This document shows, in pieces, positions 4,376-14,649 of a stretch of DNA of 18,347 nt. This stretch comes from Verrucomicrobiia bacterium (GTDB lineage Bacteria; Verrucomicrobiota; Verrucomicrobiia; Limisphaerales; Palsa-1400): positions 1 through 18,347 of the forward strand of contig JAICXV010000002.1 in assembly GCA_025934545.1 (NCBI GenBank), given 5' to 3'. A program made the translations under genes and the position numbers. The notes beneath the pieces were generated by a model. That model made no database searches and was not told where the DNA came from. It was given only the letters and a program-made list of their open reading frames with translations. Within the stretch, counting starts at the first letter, position 1, and the number at the start of each line of letters is the position of its first letter.

Positions 4376-4381
4376 GAATTC

Positions 4382-4448
4382 GACCACGGATTACACGGAT
4401 GACTCGGATAAAGAATTCTTATCCGTGCCATCCGTGTAATCCGTGGTC
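4382..4448. repeat. Long hairpin repeat (ccacggattacacggat type) after the GlcD gene
   Basis: The arm at 4382-4410 and the arm at 4420-4448 are inverted copies matching at 27 of 29 positions. The bases between them (aagaattct) nearly complete the palindrome, so almost the whole element can fold into one hairpin with a single bulged A. It starts 6 bp after the GlcD stop. It has no T-run, so it is more likely a dispersed repeat family, possibly also protecting the mRNA 3' end, than a simple terminator. I recall elements with this ACCACGGATTACACGGAT core from intergenic DNA of verrucomicrobial and planctomycete genomes, but could not check. Confidence 0.8.
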
Positions 4449-4492
4449 AATTTTGTTTGCCTTTGCAACGGGTTGCGCAAAAATTCGCGCGC

Positions 4493-5665
4493 ATGAAGAA
4501 GACCGGAAAATTTGCGGCGTATCCACGACTGAATCCACTTGGGATTGGTAAAAACATTTCCGCCGCTGACCTCATTGACGAAACCTTTCTCGCCTACAAC
4601 GGCGGACGCCTGCGCGAAGCGGCCAAGCTCCTCACCGAAAAAATGCTGCCGAAAGACGGCTTCATCGGCATGAGTCTCACTGGCGCGCTGACGCCGGCCG
4701 GCCTCGGCAAATCATGTTTGATTCCGCTGATGAAGGCCGGGTTCGTTGATTGGATTGTTTCGACGGGCGCGAATCTGTATCACGATTTGCATTACGGGTT
4801 GAACATGCAGTTGTTTCAAGGCTCGCCGTTTCTTGACGACGTCGTGTTGCATCGCGACGGCGTCATTCGCATTTACGATATTCTTTTTGATTACAATGTG
4901 CTGCTCGACACCGACGCCTTCGTGCGCGAGGTGATTCAAGGGCCGGAGTTTCAGCGCACGATGGGCACGGACGAATTTCATTATCTCCTTGGGAAATACG
5001 TGTCCGAACGCGGGCGTCAGTTGAAGCTCAAGGACAGCTCCGTCCTCGCGACGGCTTATGAATGCGGCATCCCCGTTTTCACGAGCAGCCCGGGCGACAG
5101 CTCGATTGGCATGAACGTCGCCGCGATGAGCATGCGCGATTTGAAATTGATTCCGGATGTGAATCGCGATGTGAACCAGACGGCGGCAATTGTTTACGAA
5201 GCGAAATCTTCCGGCCACAAATCGTCAGTCTTCATTCTCGGCGGTGGTTCGCCAAAAAATTTCATGCTGCAAACCGAGCCGCAGATCCAGGAAGTCATGG
5301 GCATCGAGGAAAAGGGTCACGACTACTTTTTACAATGCACCGATGCGCGGCCCGATACTGGCGGCCTCAGTGGCGCGACGCCGGCCGAAGCAGTTAGTTG
5401 GGGCAAGGTCGATCCGGATTCCCTGCCCGATTGCGTGGTCGCCTATATCGACTCGACGATTTCCCTGCCGCTACTCACCGCCTACGCCCTCAGCCGCGTC
5501 AAACCGCGTAAACAAAAGCGCCTCTTTGACCGTCGCGACGAACTTTACAACAAAGTGCGCTCGCTCTACCTGAAGATCGGGACGGTCACAAAAATCAAGA
5601 CGAGCCGAAAGCTGGCCAAACGCGCCAGCGGGGTTGGAACAAAAACAATCGAACGCGACCGCTAG
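4493..5665 (+). CDS. Deoxyhypusine synthase family protein (bacterial DHS-like / homospermidine synthase-like)
   Basis: Seen: 390 residues from ATG 4493. A TTG at 4457 would add 12 residues with no family support. [14 protein letters not shown] and [15 protein letters not shown] correspond to the NAD-binding motifs of deoxyhypusine synthase, and [11 protein letters not shown] contains the equivalent of the lysine that carries the aminobutyl imine intermediate in human DHS (here Lys305). The C-terminal 60 residues are Lys/Arg rich. Known: DHS transfers the aminobutyl group of spermidine to a lysine of eIF5A in eukaryotes and archaea. Bacteria lack eIF5A, and several bacterial members make homospermidine instead, so a polyamine role is most likely. 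Context: it follows the GlcD gene by 117 bp, most of it a hairpin repeat, so co-transcription is uncertain. It is followed by two small hairpins. Confidence 0.85.
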
Positions 5666-5675
5666 GCCTCGCTGC

Positions 5676-5760
5676 ATGTCGGAATGAATGTATGTCGGAA
5701 TAGGGCTTTCCGACATCAGACGTTTGCTTGTTGTATGTCGGAATTACTTATATTCCGACA
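5676..5760. repeat. ATGTCGGAAT repeat cluster forming two hairpins
   Basis: Direct copies of ATGTCGGAAT start at 5676, 5692 and 5735. Inverted copies lie at 5707-5716 (TTTCCGACAT) and 5752-5760 (ATTCCGACA). They form two consecutive 9-bp stems (5692-5716 and 5736-5760) directly after the DHS-like stop codon, followed by a short AAC-rich run. There is no T-run, so termination would have to be imperfect. They may instead be a small palindromic repeat family or operator-like sites. Confidence 0.7.
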
Positions 5761-5845
5761 ACAACAACAACAGCAACCCGAGGATCGATACAACAATCAG
5801 GGCAACCGACTAATCAAGGTTGGTTAGGGTTTTCGTCATTCAGGC

Positions 5846-5883
5846 AAAAAAAAATCCCCGCTAAAGGTTACCCTTTAGCAGGG
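5846..5883 (-). terminator. Intrinsic terminator of the putative ncRNA
   Basis: On the minus strand CCCTGCTAAAGG, a GTAA tetraloop, and CCTTTAGCGGGG form a 12-bp stem with one G-U pair, followed by A and then nine Ts. This is the strongest rho-independent terminator in the window and points leftward only. Because no gene on the minus strand lies between it and 6296, it argues for a transcript across that region. Confidence 0.88.
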
Positions 5884-6296
5884 AGTTTGGCTTAGCAGGG
5901 ACTTACGCGCGACATGAGGGAACCCAACGAAACCCCACACCACTTCGGCCGCCTGCAAAGATTGTCCAAAACTTTTAAAGATCGCTCGGACGCTTTATGC
6001 AATCCGAGGCAAAAAGAACTTCTGCCGATCGGGCCAGCGTATGCGTGTTGAGGATTCAGGAACGGGTCGGCATCTCTAAAGCGTTCCTCAACACACGCTG
6101 ACTTCAACTACAGGTTCAGCTTGCGAGTCCAACTCTAAACATCATCGCGTTTCCCTCAACTCCCGCGATTACGGATTTGTGTCGGGTTGTGTACGGACAC
6201 CTTCTTCCGCAACCTGTCCCCCCTTCGGCACAGCCACTTAGCCCATCAGACCCGAGCAATTACTGAGATTTTCCTTGAAAACTCAGGGGTCTCCTG
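5846..6296 (-). ncRNA. Probable structured non-coding RNA, about 450 nt, family unknown
   Basis: Seen on the minus strand: a perfect TATAAT at 6303-6308, then about 450 nt without a convincing coding frame, ending in a strong intrinsic terminator (5846-5883). Reading 5' to 3' the stretch holds several stems: CTGAGTTTTC/GAAAA-T-CTCAG near the 5' end, enclosed by AGACCC/GGGTCT; GGACA/TGTCC; ATCGCG/CGCGAT; GCTGA/TCAGC; and GTGTTGAGGA/TCCTCAACAC (6085-6094 with 6045-6054). The loop of the last stem contains TGCCGA (6067-6072), complementary to TCGGCA at 6023-6028, a possible pseudoknot. I looked for hallmarks of tmRNA (tRNA-like end, tag frame), RNase P (GAGGAAAGTC, ACAGAA), 6S and SRP RNA and found none that hold. 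A 71-codon frame inside (5892-6107) starts at TTG, lacks a ribosome-binding site and has an odd composition. The transcript start near 6296 is inferred from the -10 box; the -35 is weak. Confidence 0.62.
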
Positions 6297-6302
6297 TGCT
6301 CA

Positions 6303-6308
6303 ATTATA
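6303..6308 (-). promoter_or_regulatory. -10 box TATAAT of the putative ncRNA
   Basis: The minus strand reads CTTATAATTGAGCACAGG, a perfect sigma-70 -10 hexamer, with transcription expected to begin about seven bases downstream near 6295-6297. No clear TTGACA is found 16-18 bp upstream, as is common for PVC promoters. It sits about 55 bp upstream of, and divergent from, the monoheme protein gene. Confidence 0.55.
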
Positions 6309-6363
6309 AGGTAAAGTCCTCAGCTACCGGCATCGAATGTCGGGCGGCGCGGACCCGCATTCT

Positions 6364-7590
6364 ATGCCGTCGCGAATTTCAAGAGTTGTATTGCTCGTCA
6401 TCCTGGCATCGCTCTGTGCCTTCAACGGCACTTGCCAGAGTCTTCACAAAACAAACGCCGTCGAAGCCACGATGTACGATCCGGATCCCGGCCATGTCGC
6501 CAATCGGCTTTATCGCGCGCTCTACACCTGGAAAGGCGACGATGAAGCAACACCGAGCCATTGGCCCCGGCAAAAAGTTGTTTACGACGGTGCGTCTCTG
6601 AAATCACTTCTCGATGAATTGATGCAATTAAACGTTGCCAAAGATTTTCCTGATCCGATCAAACGCGTCTTCCTGCAACGCGACCTCTGGCTGGCGTTCG
6701 ATTGGCTCGCGCAACAACCGGCGCTGGCGGGCGGCGAAATCCCGGTGATTCAACGCAAATTGGCGCGCGCCATTCAACACGTTGCTTTGCCCTTGGCCCA
6801 GTTACGTCAATTGCCCGACAACTACGAAGAGCAACTAGGCACCGACGCTTTTCCGATCGAGTTCGATCACGGCGCTCCGAACGCGCCGTTTTTGCCGGCG
6901 GGTTTATTCGCCCGCGCCGGTTCATGGATCATGGTCGGGGACAGCGATACGCGCGGCGTCTTGACCATGCAGCACCTGGATTTCTTCCGCGGCCACGACG
7001 CCTATATGGTTTTCGTGCGTCTGCCCGCAGGTCGTGCTGCGACGATTGCTTTTTTGAATAATTTGACCACGGCGGCAAAGGGGCACAGCAAATTGCCGGC
7101 GTTACCCGAAGGTTCACAAATGGCGCTCGTCTCTCAAGTCATGGCCGTGGACGACAAATGCATGCCGTTCCCGACAACCATCACTGAAAACGTCCAGATC
7201 CGCGTTTATCGTCAGCCGAATGATTCTTTAACAAAGACTCCCGACGCCCAGTCGCGATTTGAATTCCGTCTCGACCGCGCCGCCTTATTCGCCCACAAGG
7301 CTATCACCCTGCGTCCCGTCGGCGCGAAAGAGACCGATTGGCAATCCATCAATTATTTGGGCACTAAAAAAGGCGATAGCGACAACAAAGCCGCGATCAT
7401 GGGCAGTTGCATTGATTGCCACGACGAACCTGGCGCTGAATCGTTCAAGACGTTCTCGCAGATGCGGGCTGCTCGCGCGCAAATCCGCCCAATGGGAGTG
7501 TCGAAGCGTTCAGACGAAGTCGGCCGCGCGGTCACCTGGAAACAGCATCAGTTTGATTTTCAGTTGTTACGCGACTTCTGGGCGCAGTAA
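6364..7590 (+). CDS. Exported monoheme cytochrome c-like protein, function unknown
   Basis: Seen: 408 residues from ATG 6364, beginning MPSRISRVVLLVILASLCAF, a Sec signal peptide. An ATG at 6337 would place nine polar residues before it and is less likely. There is no good lipobox. One c-type heme site, SCIDCHDEP (Cys349-His353), lies near the C-terminus; no second CxxCH is present. The 300 residues before it contain no motif I recognise, but look globular and periplasmic (for example WLAFDWLAQQPALAGGE, SWIMVGDSDTRGVL). Inference: an exported one-heme electron-transfer protein or a redox enzyme with a large extra domain. Context: its stop is 9 bp before the sulfatase start, so the two are probably co-transcribed. 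It resembles the uncharacterised heme proteins common in planctomycetes and Verrucomicrobia, but I cannot name a family. Confidence 0.8.
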   Translation: MPSRISRVVLLVILASLCAFNGTCQSLHKTNAVEATMYDPDPGHVANRLYRALYTWKGDDEATPSHWPRQKVVYDGASLKSLLDELMQLNVAKDFPDPIKRVFLQRDLWLAFDWLAQQPALAGGEIPVIQRKLARAIQHVALPLAQLRQLPDNYEEQLGTDAFPIEFDHGAPNAPFLPAGLFARAGSWIMVGDSDTRGVLTMQHLDFFRGHDAYMVFVRLPAGRAATIAFLNNLTTAAKGHSKLPALPEGSQMALVSQVMAVDDKCMPFPTTITENVQIRVYRQPNDSLTKTPDAQSRFEFRLDRAALFAHKAITLRPVGAKETDWQSINYLGTKKGDSDNKAAIMGSCIDCHDEPGAESFKTFSQMRAARAQIRPMGVSKRSDEVGRAVTWKQHQFDFQLLRDFWAQ

Positions 7591-7599
7591 CATCGCGGC

Positions 7600-9033
7600 G
7601 TGTTTTCAATATTCGATTTTCGACATTCGATTTTTTCCAAACTGCTGCCCCTCGCTGCGATCTTGATCGGACCGCTCGTCAGCGCTCAGCCAGAGCCGCG
7701 TCCGAACATTGTTTTCGTTTTGATGGATGACCAGCGCTGGGACGATCTCGGGTTCGCTGGACATCCCTTCGTGCAAACGCCGAACATCGACCGCCTCGCG
7801 CACGAAGGCATTCGGTTCACTCACGCTTTTGTCACCACCCCGCTTTGCTCGCCGAGCCGCGCCAGTTTTCTGACCGGCGAATACGCGCACACGCACGGCA
7901 TCACCGACAACACCGCCCACGACAAACAGAGCCATCAACTCGTGACCTGGCCGCGCTTGCTCCACGATGTCGGTTACGAAACCGGCTTCGTCGGCAAATG
8001 GCACATGGGTTTGGACGACACACCGCGTCCCGGTTTCGATTATTGGGTGAGCATTCGCGGCCAGGGCCAATACCTTGATCCGCCGATCAACGACAATGGA
8101 AACCGCCGCGTCATCAAAGGTTACGTCACCGATATCTTCTCCGATTACGCCGTCGATTTTCTCAAACACAAACACGACAAGCCGTTCATGCTTTGGGTCG
8201 CGCACAAAGCCGTCCATCCCGACTTGCAACAAGCCGCCGACGGAACATTGTCCGATCCCTCCGCTGGAAAATTTATTCCCGCGGAACGACACAAACATTT
8301 ATACGCGAACAAACCGATTCCGCGCCGTCCGAATTACGGTGTCGCGCCCAAAGACAAACCGGCGCTCGCGCGACAAATCGATTCGCTACCGCCGCTGAGC
8401 GATAAAACCGGCACGGACGACGAAACCGTTCGCAATCGCTTGCGCATGGTCGTCGCGGTGGACGAAGGTGTCGGACGGATGTTGAAAGTGTTGGAAGACG
8501 CACATCAACTCGACAATACGCTGTTCGTTTTCACCAGTGATGAAGGTTATTTTTATGGCGAACACGGATTGAGCGTTGAGCGACGGCTCGCCTACGAGGA
8601 ATCGGCGCTGATTCCAATCGTGATGCGTTATCCGAAACTCATCCGACCTAACACGTCCTGTGACGCCATGGTCCTCAACATCGACATCGCTCCCACAATG
8701 CTCGAGCTTGGCGGCGCAAAAATACCAAAGACCGTTCAAGGCATGTCTCTCGTTCCGTGGTTAGATGGCAAAGATGGAAAAGATTTCGTCTGGCGCGATT
8801 CCTTCCTCATCGAATATTGGTCCGACAAAGTTTTCCCGCGCGTGCTGAAGATGGGTTACAAATGCGTGCGAACAGATCGTTGGAAATATATCCACTACGT
8901 CGACCTCACGGGCATGGACGAACTATACGATCTGCAACAAGACCCCTACGAAATGACGAACGTCATTTCGAAAGCCCAGGCGAAAAAGGTTTTGCCGCAG
9001 CTCCAAGAGCAATTGATCAAGCTCTCGCGATAA
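7600..9033 (+). CDS. Secreted sulfatase (arylsulfatase family, S1)
   Basis: Seen: 477 residues from a GTG at 7600; no ATG occurs before the first catalytic motif, so a non-ATG start is required. The N-terminus to about residue 30 is a hydrophobic signal ending LVSAQPEPRP. The sulfatase core then begins PNIVFVLMDDQRWDDLG (metal aspartates 43 and 44), followed by TTPLCSPSRASFLTGEY, the C-x-P-S-R signature whose Cys83 is matured to formylglycine. GFVGKWHMG, FTSDEGYFYGEHGL and a C-terminal ELYDLQQDPYEMTNV tail complete the family layout. Known: such enzymes hydrolyse sulfate esters, often on polysaccharides, and are expanded in PVC bacteria. Substrate cannot be told. A formylglycine-generating enzyme or anSME must be encoded elsewhere. 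It follows the monoheme gene by 9 bp and converges with the muramidase gene. Confidence 0.9.
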   Translation: MFSIFDFRHSIFSKLLPLAAILIGPLVSAQPEPRPNIVFVLMDDQRWDDLGFAGHPFVQTPNIDRLAHEGIRFTHAFVTTPLCSPSRASFLTGEYAHTHGITDNTAHDKQSHQLVTWPRLLHDVGYETGFVGKWHMGLDDTPRPGFDYWVSIRGQGQYLDPPINDNGNRRVIKGYVTDIFSDYAVDFLKHKHDKPFMLWVAHKAVHPDLQQAADGTLSDPSAGKFIPAERHKHLYANKPIPRRPNYGVAPKDKPALARQIDSLPPLSDKTGTDDETVRNRLRMVVAVDEGVGRMLKVLEDAHQLDNTLFVFTSDEGYFYGEHGLSVERRLAYEESALIPIVMRYPKLIRPNTSCDAMVLNIDIAPTMLELGGAKIPKTVQGMSLVPWLDGKDGKDFVWRDSFLIEYWSDKVFPRVLKMGYKCVRTDRWKYIHYVDLTGMDELYDLQQDPYEMTNVISKAQAKKVLPQLQEQLIKLSR

Positions 9034-9035
9034 AT

Positions 9036-9085
9036 AAAAACCCGCGCAAACTTCAGGTCGATGACGACCCGAAAGCCTGCGCGGG
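9036..9085 (-). terminator. Intrinsic terminator of the GH25 muramidase gene
   Basis: On the minus strand CCCGCGCA pairs with TGCGCGGG (9041-9048 with 9078-9085). An inner CGACC/GGTCG stem surrounds a short loop, and TTTTTATTTA follows the outer stem. It sits between the convergent sulfatase and muramidase genes, with its T-run on the muramidase side. The stem could also slow transcription from the sulfatase side, where no T-run follows. Confidence 0.75.
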
Positions 9086-9102
9086 CGACTGTTCAAAACC
9101 AA

Positions 9103-10677
9103 TTATTCGTGAACCAACGAATAGCTGCTGTTACCAAACGCGAAGTTATAGACCGTACCCGACTGGCCATCGCGCACATACCAGGTGCCGGTCGACGGAC
9201 GGAACAGAATTTGATCGATCACGCCGTGGCCGAAAATATTCCCCACCATCGGCTGATCGCCGTTGGCGCCGAATGGGAAACTGACGGTGTGCCCATCACT
9301 GCCGAAGCGGACGTACCATGTTCCCGTGGACGGACGGAACAAACAGGCGTCACGCATTTGTCCTGACCACGCGCCAATCATCGGAATATCGCCAGCCGCT
9401 CCCCACGCAAACGAATGGCTGCTGCCATCAGTCCCGCCGAAGCGCACGAACCACGTTCCGGTCGAGGGACGAAACACAACCTGATCCTTCATTCCTTTAC
9501 CATCGAAATCGCCGACCATCGGAATATCGCCGGCTTGGCCATATTGAAGGGAAGTTGTGTTGCCGGTGTCACCGTAGCGGATGTACCAGATGCCGGATGA
9601 AGGGCGGAATACCGTTTGGTCGCGCATCTGTCCGGACCACGCGCCGATCAATGGAATGTCGCCGTTGGTTCCCCAGAGAAACGAAGAGCTGCCGCCGCTC
9701 TGGAAGCGCACAAACCACTTTCCGAGAGACGGACGAAACACCGCTGCCTCACCGGCCGTCGGCGAACTCCAATTTCCGATCACGGGAATATCGCCCGCCG
9801 TCCCAAAACTGAACGTTGTGATGGCGCCAGTTCCGGTACTGGAACGCGTTTGCCAACTGCCGGCATTGAACAAAACATAATCGGTTCTGCCATCGTTGTT
9901 AAAATCACCAGGCAGATAACTCGCCTGAGCGACATACGGCGAAGCCGACGCGTTATTGATCACATCAGCATCCACACCGCCCGAAACTCCAGAGACCGAA
10001 GCCGAATCGGTATATTGCCACGCATCCCAAACTCCCGAACCCCACACAGCGCAACTGCCGCAGGTACTCCAGGGCGTGCCGGTCTGCGAACTCTCGCCGT
10101 TGTAATCGGCGATGTCCGCATTCCACACCGCAACACTGCCATCGAAGTTACAAGCGCTGCATGCGCTGGTGTAAATGAACGGCGTAATTTTGACGCCTTT
10201 GGCCGATGCATCGGCGACTGCCGCATTGTTCCATTGATTGGCCCAATCCGAATAACTCGACGCGCTGACGTGGCCGCTGAAAACTTCCATGTCCAACATC
10301 GGCATCAAGGTCTTGCCATCGGCATCAATATAATTTCCCGCCACGGACCAGAAATGATTTTCCTCGCTCGCCGCACTCGCGGAAGCCGGATGGGCAAAGT
10401 GATAGGCACCCATGATCATGCCGGCGGCTTTGCCGTTGTTTTGGTTAATGGTGAAATCGCTGTCCGTGATCGTGGTGCCTTCCGTGGCTTTGGCCCAGGC
10501 GAACGTTCGCCCGGAACCCTTGACGCTCGTCCAATTGACACCCGAACCCTGAAAGGAAGAAACATCAATGCCCAGCGCGCGAGACGCCATCGTGTCTCGA
10601 ACTCCTAAAGTCAGACCCAGGGCAGCAATGATCGCTGTCGTCCAAGTCGTGTTTATACGTGATCGGAATACTTTCAT
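9103..10677 (-). CDS. Secreted GH25 muramidase with six C-terminal FG-GAP-like repeats
   Basis: Seen: 524 residues with a signal peptide (MKVFRSRINTTWTTAIIAAL). Residues about 33-245 form a glycoside hydrolase family 25 domain: ALGIDVSSFQG (Asp38), FAWAKATEGTT, GAYHFAHP, MPMLDMEV (Asp129 and Glu131, the catalytic pair position) and WDAWQYTD. CSAC (173-176) and CGSC (206-209) may make disulfides. Residues about 257-524 hold six repeats of roughly 45 residues, each like GDIPMIGAWSGQMRD...VFRPSTGTWYVRFG, related to VCBS/FG-GAP blades. Known: GH25 enzymes cleave the beta-1,4 MurNAc-GlcNAc bond of peptidoglycan. Inference: the repeats likely bind a surface or polymer, making this an exported lysin against other bacteria or a self cell-wall enzyme. 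It is a single-gene unit, divergent from the FG-GAP gene and closed by its own terminator. Confidence 0.9.
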   Translation of the reverse strand: MKVFRSRINTTWTTAIIAALGLTLGVRDTMASRALGIDVSSFQGSGVNWTSVKGSGRTFAWAKATEGTTITDSDFTINQNNGKAAGMIMGAYHFAHPASASAASEENHFWSVAGNYIDADGKTLMPMLDMEVFSGHVSASSYSDWANQWNNAAVADASAKGVKITPFIYTSACSACNFDGSVAVWNADIADYNGESSQTGTPWSTCGSCAVWGSGVWDAWQYTDSASVSGVSGGVDADVINNASASPYVAQASYLPGDFNNDGRTDYVLFNAGSWQTRSSTGTGAITTFSFGTAGDIPVIGNWSSPTAGEAAVFRPSLGKWFVRFQSGGSSSFLWGTNGDIPLIGAWSGQMRDQTVFRPSSGIWYIRYGDTGNTTSLQYGQAGDIPMVGDFDGKGMKDQVVFRPSTGTWFVRFGGTDGSSHSFAWGAAGDIPMIGAWSGQMRDACLFRPSTGTWYVRFGSDGHTVSFPFGANGDQPMVGNIFGHGVIDQILFRPSTGTWYVRDGQSGTVYNFAFGNSSYSLVHE

Positions 10678-14561: not shown

Positions 14562-14649
14562 CGGAGCGCGGACTTCAGTCCGCTTCAGCGTTGTCGCAGA
14601 CACATCGTTTGAAAGTTGTTAGGTGAAGCGGACTAAAGTCCGCGCTCCG
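14562..14649. repeat. Inverted repeat pair of the ggagcgcggacttcagtccgc type
   Basis: The arms at 14562-14587 and 14624-14649 are inverted copies identical at 25 of 26 positions, separated by 36 bp. Each arm also contains its own small palindrome (CGGACTTCAGTCCG-like). The left arm begins on the base after the DUF1501 stop. I recall this sequence type as a dispersed intergenic repeat in verrucomicrobial genomes. It looks like a REP/MITE-like element and may end or stabilise the DUF1501 transcript. Confidence 0.8.

Follow-up and report, generated by a model that had tools for sequence, protein, structure and literature searches.

Large structured bacterial RNAs that belong to no catalogued family are uncommon. 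The described RNAs closest to the one presented here are OLE, ROOL and GOLLD: like it, they are long, structured and noncoding, and according to excerpts of PMC12286853 their functions remain poorly understood. The same excerpts locate ROOL and GOLLD in phages and prophages, and give a length of 659 nt for one ROOL and of over 800 nt for many GOLLD RNAs; both are thus longer than the RNA described below (~450 nt) which, in addition, has no phage gene among the neighbouring proteins scanned. The string 'Verrucomicrobi' has 0 occurrences, by word search, in the main texts of PMC12286853 and PMC8040213. Among the papers listed by our literature search, from whose coverage most subscription journals are absent, none has a title or abstract start describing the RNA. 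No match to OLE, ROOL or GOLLD was listed for the RNA or its homologues with the Rfam 15 library, in which these three families are presumably all present. By Rfam, the RNA is not a member of any of them, and it would be filed among the standalone structured bacterial RNAs of unknown function.

The window analysed, i.e. the whole stretch of 18,347 nt at the start of contig JAICXV010000002.1, comes from the draft genome of an uncultured verrucomicrobial bacterium (3.58 Mb, 73% complete; G000 below, of which the window is contig C187). Its minus strand very probably carries, from about 6304 to 5846, a gene for a structured RNA of about 450 nt (Table 1). An earlier note, made from the letters of the window, had placed there an orphan RNA gene bracketed by a perfect TATAAT and by the strongest terminator of the window. 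The terminator part of that description holds: among the 23 terminator-like sites listed in the window, it ranks first by number of pairs (stem 5884-5855; 13 pairs, 9 T). The TATAAT is present at 6303-6308 on the minus strand, but its standing as a promoter is weaker. It is absent from the 8 promoter-like sites of the scan, whose rule thus assigns it no -35. The window contains 4 TATAAT against 2.1 on average in shuffled versions, 38 of 200 of which reach 4. In the same-genus relative (G001) the site reads GATGAT: the box is not conserved, and a promoter as a fixed feature of the gene is not supported. In the copy from a second genus of the same family (G002), an AATAAT was seen by eye near the start of the RNA.

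Table 1. Coordinates in the window of the probable RNA gene, its predicted parts and its neighbours
Feature	Position	Strand	Remarks
Convergent neighbour, deoxyhypusine synthase-like protein	4457..5665	+	Best NCBIfam match: homospermidine biosynthesis protein
Probable RNA gene, ~450 nt	5846..6304	-	Both ends predicted; RNA position p = window 6305-p
Intrinsic terminator	5847..5884	-	Stem kept in all three sequences; U-run weaker in G002
Invariant linker AAGCCAAAC, 3' domain to terminator	5885..5893	-	Alignment
3' domain: long hairpin, well conserved	5895..5956	-	Helices 5 and 6 of the hand-drawn structure
Invariant 14-nt block GGTTTCGTTGGGTT, apical loop and closing pairs	5921..5934	-	Alignment
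Small hairpin CUCGG/CCGAG	5983..6009	-	Two double-changed pairs; helix 4 of the hand-drawn structure
Central long hairpin	6034..6101	-	Helices 2 and 3 of the hand-drawn structure
Invariant block CCGTTCCTGA, loop region of central hairpin	6056..6065	-	Three-sequence alignment
5' core	6167..6214	-	Outer helix 6206-6214 with 6167-6175, enclosing hairpin 6179-6200; single folds
Invariant block AAATCCGTA	6170..6178	-	Three-sequence alignment
Invariant blocks TGTCCGTACA and ACCCGAC, two bases apart	6181..6199	-	Three-sequence alignment
5' variable part	6202..6304	-	58% to G001; no recognised G002 counterpart
TATAAT, possible -10	6303..6308	-	No -35 by promoter scan
Divergent neighbour, 417-aa protein	6337..7590	+	No Pfam or NCBIfam match

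In G001 the RNA lies between the same two genes as in G000; the N-terminal part of the 417-aa protein adjoins it and the contig stops there. This protein contains a CIDCH motif, which we take to be haem-like. Just past the deoxyhypusine synthase-like gene, the window holds repeated TGTCGGAAT units in both orientations (5677-5760), possibly the terminator of that gene or a palindromic repeat. A second, partial match to this gene's protein exists elsewhere in G000 (C785:86-433; 34% identity, one internal stop).

The earlier note had suggested a blastn search for homologues. Carried out on a set of 40 genomes (G000 and relatives), it matched three of them, G000 included: the G001 copy at 80% identity over query positions 2-463 (E 5.5e-111) and the G002 copy at 73% over positions 349-432 (E 5.3e-4), the latter scoring 142 bits with the R2 model defined below. 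Identity between G000 and G001 is 78.9% over 454 aligned columns and between G000 and G002 60.2% over 339. By segment, from the 5' to the 3' end, the values for the G000/G001 pair are 58% for the first 103 columns, 92% for the 5' core, 84% for the linker, 96% for the central hairpin, 50% for the variable stretch before the 3' domain, 92% for the 3' domain and 92% for the terminator; for the G000/G002 pair they are 78% for the 5' core, 57% for the central hairpin and 73% for the 3' domain, no counterpart of the first ~100 nt being recognised in G002. A blastn comparison of the two same-genus loci (E up to 1e-5) aligned 5845-6512, which spans the RNA and the beginning of the 417-aa gene, at 78% identity (17 gaps), and two upstream coding stretches at 82% and 85%; the 180-nt spacer beyond the terminator (5666-5844) remained unaligned. 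Seven runs of at least 7 nt (7 to 14 nt) are invariant in all three sequences: TGTCCGTACA, ACCCGAC, AAATCCGTA, CCGTTCCTGA, GGTTTCGTTGGGTT, AAGCCAAAC and CCCTGCT.

The claim that the stretch has no convincing coding frame was borne out by translation of the three sequences in all six frames, no open frame being shared. In G000 the longest one, with 71 aa, is on the RNA strand and is interrupted in G001, and the G000/G001 alignment of the RNA contains single-base indels. On the strand opposite the G002 copy, 120 aa are open, to which nothing corresponds in G000 or G001. A conserved protein frame is absent from the RNA stretch in the three sequences. As far as the three-way alignment tells, blocks, predicted helices and terminator are kept while the remainder drifts, and no protein frame is kept with them. 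As a separate observation, a 156-aa open frame runs antisense to the G002 RNA copy (locus L003, 1232-1702, minus strand), also with no counterpart in G000 or G001.

The predicted fold starts with the 5' core, the outer helix of which has 9 pairs in the G000 fold and 7 in that of G001 and is uncertain in G002; the hairpin that it encloses (6179-6200) is helix 1 of a structure drawn by hand from the folds. In the central hairpin three pairs are changed on both sides between genera and seven are broken in G002. It contains the 10-bp GTGTTGAGGA/TCCTCAACAC stem on which the earlier note had remarked: this stem is exact (6085-6094 with 6045-6054), and in G002 two of its ten pairs are changed on both sides and four are lost. 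The pseudoknot proposed at the same time, TGCCGA with TCGGCA, did not survive the comparison: the complementarity exists in the window sequence alone, and neither element is present in either homologue. An alternative was considered, between GAYCCG in the central loop (6063-6068) and CGGRUY in the next hairpin. Pairing is complete in G001 and G002, but in G000 one position is mismatched. This contact also competes with the small hairpin, and it was not retained.

All three RNAs fold better than their dinucleotide shuffles: the z values are -4.46 for G000 (5846-6300, minus strand), -4.38 for G001 and -3.59 for G002, with none of 100 shuffles as good in each case. When the window was cut into 300-nt tiles on both strands (n=242), 10 tiles were below the z of 5851-6150 minus. 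Seven of them lie over two inverted repeats (4377-4453 and 14562-14649), two are at 8851-9150, and one covers 5701-6000 on the plus strand. By itself, a low folding energy does not single out a stretch of the window; what distinguishes the 5846-6304 stretch is conservation among relatives. At 4377-4453, between two genes, lies a 35-nt inverted repeat (89% complementary, CCACGGATTACACGGAT type); no tile of the window has a lower folding z than one over this repeat (-8.4). A 26-nt inverted repeat (96% complementary, GCGGACTTCAGTCCGC type) is found at a gene boundary at 14562-14649. The 8851-9150 segment has a low z on both strands (-6.7 minus, -4.2 plus), and no inverted repeat was found in the part of it that was searched (9030-9110).

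The reading that we favour, with moderate confidence, is that of a standalone noncoding structured RNA of ~450 nt acting in trans, as an RNA or as an RNA-protein particle. On the minus strand, transcription would begin a little upstream of 6300 and stop at the intrinsic terminator. The transcript would fold into the 5' core hairpin, the long central hairpin and the 3' hairpin, and the invariant loops GGUUUCGUUGGGUU, CCGUACANNACCC and CCGUUCCUGA, with the linker AAGCCAAAC, would be its working surfaces, which may dock with each other or bind a protein. Such an RNA would act in trans and not as the leader of a neighbouring gene. Action in trans is suggested by the G002 copy, because its neighbours differ: there the RNA is flanked by a nucleoside symporter gene and by one for a LuxR-type response regulator. 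Conservation is highest in the loops and the linker, not in one seed, and we therefore tend to read these parts as tertiary docking or protein-binding surfaces; that the RNA works in trans through its loops has about an even chance of being right.

The main rival is an ordinary long sRNA, i.e. a trans-acting antisense regulator that would pair with mRNAs via the apical loop GGUUUCGUUGGGUU or via a different block that is exposed. What speaks for it is that a free-standing RNA with its own terminator has an invariant loop of 14 nt, as does a genomic context that differs between genera, expected of any trans-acting RNA, but several invariant blocks and conserved long hairpins probably exceed the needs of one seed, and we consider antisense regulation unlikely while keeping it well in sight. 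More doubtful still is a reading in which this long RNA, so far undescribed, has a compact tertiary core: ACCC in the 5' hairpin loop would dock with GGGU in the 3' apical loop, so as to make a self-assembling RNA or RNP machine, possibly catalytic, that arose or was kept only in this small verrucomicrobial lineage. The contact could lengthen to ACCCGAC/GUUGGGU, with 7 pairs, should the 5' stem open. Both of its sides are invariant, so covariation cannot speak, and by a rough estimate a match of this type among invariant blocks is not rare by chance.

A different view is that there is no functional RNA, the stretch being a slowly drifting intergenic sequence, or the remnant of an old gene or mobile element, that ends with a terminator. 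The automatic covariation test speaks for it. Consensus folds were computed (alifold) for four alignments of the three sequences, each compared with 200 column shuffles. Their energies favour the sense strand: z was -6.31 sense versus -2.72 antisense for the shared part, -7.74 versus -3.15 for the 3' domain with terminator and -5.00 versus +0.20 for the 3' domain without terminator, which has 24 fully paired pairs against 18.1 in shuffles (0/200 reach this number). Taken by itself, the middle part gives little: z was -2.21 on the sense and -1.72 on the antisense strand, and its 29 fully paired pairs compare with 31.6 in shuffles. Pairs changed on both sides in these automatic structures were in no excess over shuffles, on the sense strand, in any of the four alignments: 9 versus 9.6 in the shared part (141 of 200 shuffles reach 9), 1 versus 1.7 in the 3' domain, 1 versus 1.0 in the same domain without terminator and 5 versus 5.7 in the middle part. 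The hand-drawn 60-pair structure keeps 7 such pairs (shuffle mean 2.9; 2/500 reach 7) and is paired in 94.8% of its 174 cells (1/500 reach), while versions of it slid along the alignment have 0-2 double-changed pairs and are 40-47% paired; these counts are inflated, the structure having been taken from the fold outputs of the same three sequences, and for that reason they are support, not proof. The chain of stems of the earlier note stands in so far as the folds beat shuffles and stems are kept in the homologues; as regards covariation, the two counts, both made on three sequences, point in different directions. Even so, the view that there is no functional RNA is improbable. It could explain why the stretch was found in three draft genomes only and why the automatic test stays at the level of shuffles, but not the conservation of blocks across genera at different loci with their helices kept; moreover, the draft genome has a single copy by blastn, and no mobile-element gene was found among the neighbouring proteins scanned.

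That the RNA belongs, in a divergent form missed by Rfam, to a known family (tmRNA, RNase P, 6S, SRP RNA, OLE, ROOL, GOLLD or another) is slightly less probable again. The size would fit several of them and Rfam models can miss outliers, but the search of the whole window, which the earlier note had proposed as a check, gave 0 matches at gathering score. The note's statement that the hallmarks of tmRNA, RNase P, 6S and SRP RNA are missing agrees with this: the covariance models for tmRNA, class A RNase P, 6S and bacterial small SRP RNA gave nothing above gathering on the window, and the genome has its own copies, above cut-off, on other contigs, i.e. tmRNA on C698 (157.2 bits), RNase P RNA on C520 (235.8 bits), 6S RNA on C330 (65.7 bits) and bacterial small SRP RNA on C741 (70.3 bits). 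The closest in kind are tmRNA (RF00023), of similar length and standalone, but for which ARAGORN, which looks for the tRNA-like domain and tag frame, found 0 genes in the window; and 6S RNA (RF00013), also a standalone regulatory RNA, but with a model of 187 positions against ~450 nt here. With a relaxed threshold, 9 matches appeared on 5700-6400, 1 on the G002 homologue and 3 on that of G001, all below gathering, and most of those on the three sequences lie on or include the terminator hairpin. At the 3' end of the RNA, NsiR1 (RF02399; 21.4 bits, gathering 39) and rli38 (RF01470; 22.6 bits, gathering 49) match mainly this hairpin, and Pseudomon-1/ErsA (RF01719; 19.2 bits, gathering 50) reaches further upstream with some broken pairs. 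The match on the G002 copy is to RNase P, on the opposite strand, and its 11.1 bits are far below the gathering score of 100.

Least probable of all is a cis-acting leader or attenuator whose terminator would control the downstream gene: in G002 the RNA does lie upstream of, and in the same direction as, the nucleoside symporter (Nuc_H_symport) gene, but in G000 and G001 the next gene past the terminator is convergent, and the role is unlikely because nothing adjacent is downstream in these two genomes.

How widely the putative trans-acting RNA is distributed was examined with three models: R1 (3' domain with terminator), R2 (5' core and central hairpin) and R3 (3' domain without terminator). 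The order, class and phylum searches used strict filters, by which strongly diverged copies could be missed. With R1, 7 of 293 genomes of the order were matched and 3 kept; the alignments of the other four (L015-L018) were dominated by the terminator. Five of 387 genomes of the phylum were matched and G000 was kept. The four others (L061-L064) were dropped, three after viewing of the alignments and L064 on its score alone (23.2 bits); L061, at 35.1 bits and aligned along the whole R1 model, looks to us like a 5S rRNA at its 3' end, with a terminator behind it. R1 also gave 26-28 bits on the opposite strand of the terminator in G000 and G001, so matches of this kind are cheap. R2 found 3 of 320 genomes of the order and 1 of 387 of the phylum; with the filters relaxed and E values up to 1 admitted, it found 3 of 39 relatives. 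R3 found 1 of 384 genomes of the class. No further convincing homologue emerged from these searches of 293 to 387 genomes each. G001 and G002 were not matched in the phylum searches with R1 and R2 nor in the class search with R3, which means that the evenly drawn samples probably do not contain them.

An exact 21-base pattern was also scanned against genome contigs (84,980 species by the collection's description). It was found in 9 stretches, two of which were judged real, being the G002 and G001 copies themselves (L022 and L027), and seven due to chance. Among the rejected ones, R1 gave L021 (Oscillospiraceae) 8.8 bits and R2 gave it 6.7, the R2 match being at another place in the locus, and L026 had 16.3 bits (E 0.009) with R1; both had been selected for holding the pattern, which inflates their scores. 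Scans of viral contigs for exact patterns gave 8 and 8 stretches, all judged chance: the best of the first set (L037) had 13.1 bits with R1, away from the pattern, and the best of the second owed its 14.0 bits to an R2 match on the 18-nt motif. Among the genome and viral pattern loci of the first scans, R2 was scored on L021 and L023 only. Plasmid and phage records had no match at E 1e-5. Separately, positions 2909-2851 of L021 bear a weak likeness to the 3' hairpin (full-length nhmmer profile: 19.5 bits, E 1.1e-5, 59 nt), which the covariance models do not back.

Within the family itself, the RNA was not found in G003, G004 and G005 with R1, R2 or the looser-filter R2, which implies that these genomes can do without it, that their assemblies lack it, or that it has diverged too far for the models. 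Nor did the convergent-gene loci of G002-G005, searched with R1 with filters off and short flanks, have a convincing copy: the best score, 14.0 bits (E 0.006), was at the G002 locus, whereas the real G002 copy, which lies elsewhere, has 105.7 bits. Ranked by identity of the convergent gene's protein, the genomes come as G001 (94%), G002 (90%), G003 (83%), and G004 and G005 (56%), from which the RNA appears to mark the nearest relatives. This fits a gain in the lineage of G000-G002, or a loss or divergence in the others, the genomes being incomplete.

The earlier note had suggested an undescribed family. The lack of any Rfam match at gathering score and the two homologues speak for it, but it is narrow, with three sequences found; we think it probable that the RNA defines a narrow new family, which in the collections searched is limited to two genera within a single verrucomicrobial family. 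Its three natural versions, in which the invariant blocks have sharp borders, provide a defined starting point (blocks, helices, terminator) for work on expression, probing and partners in a little-studied phylum. If real, the family would mean that an RNA of this kind can be confined to two genera and yet be well conserved.
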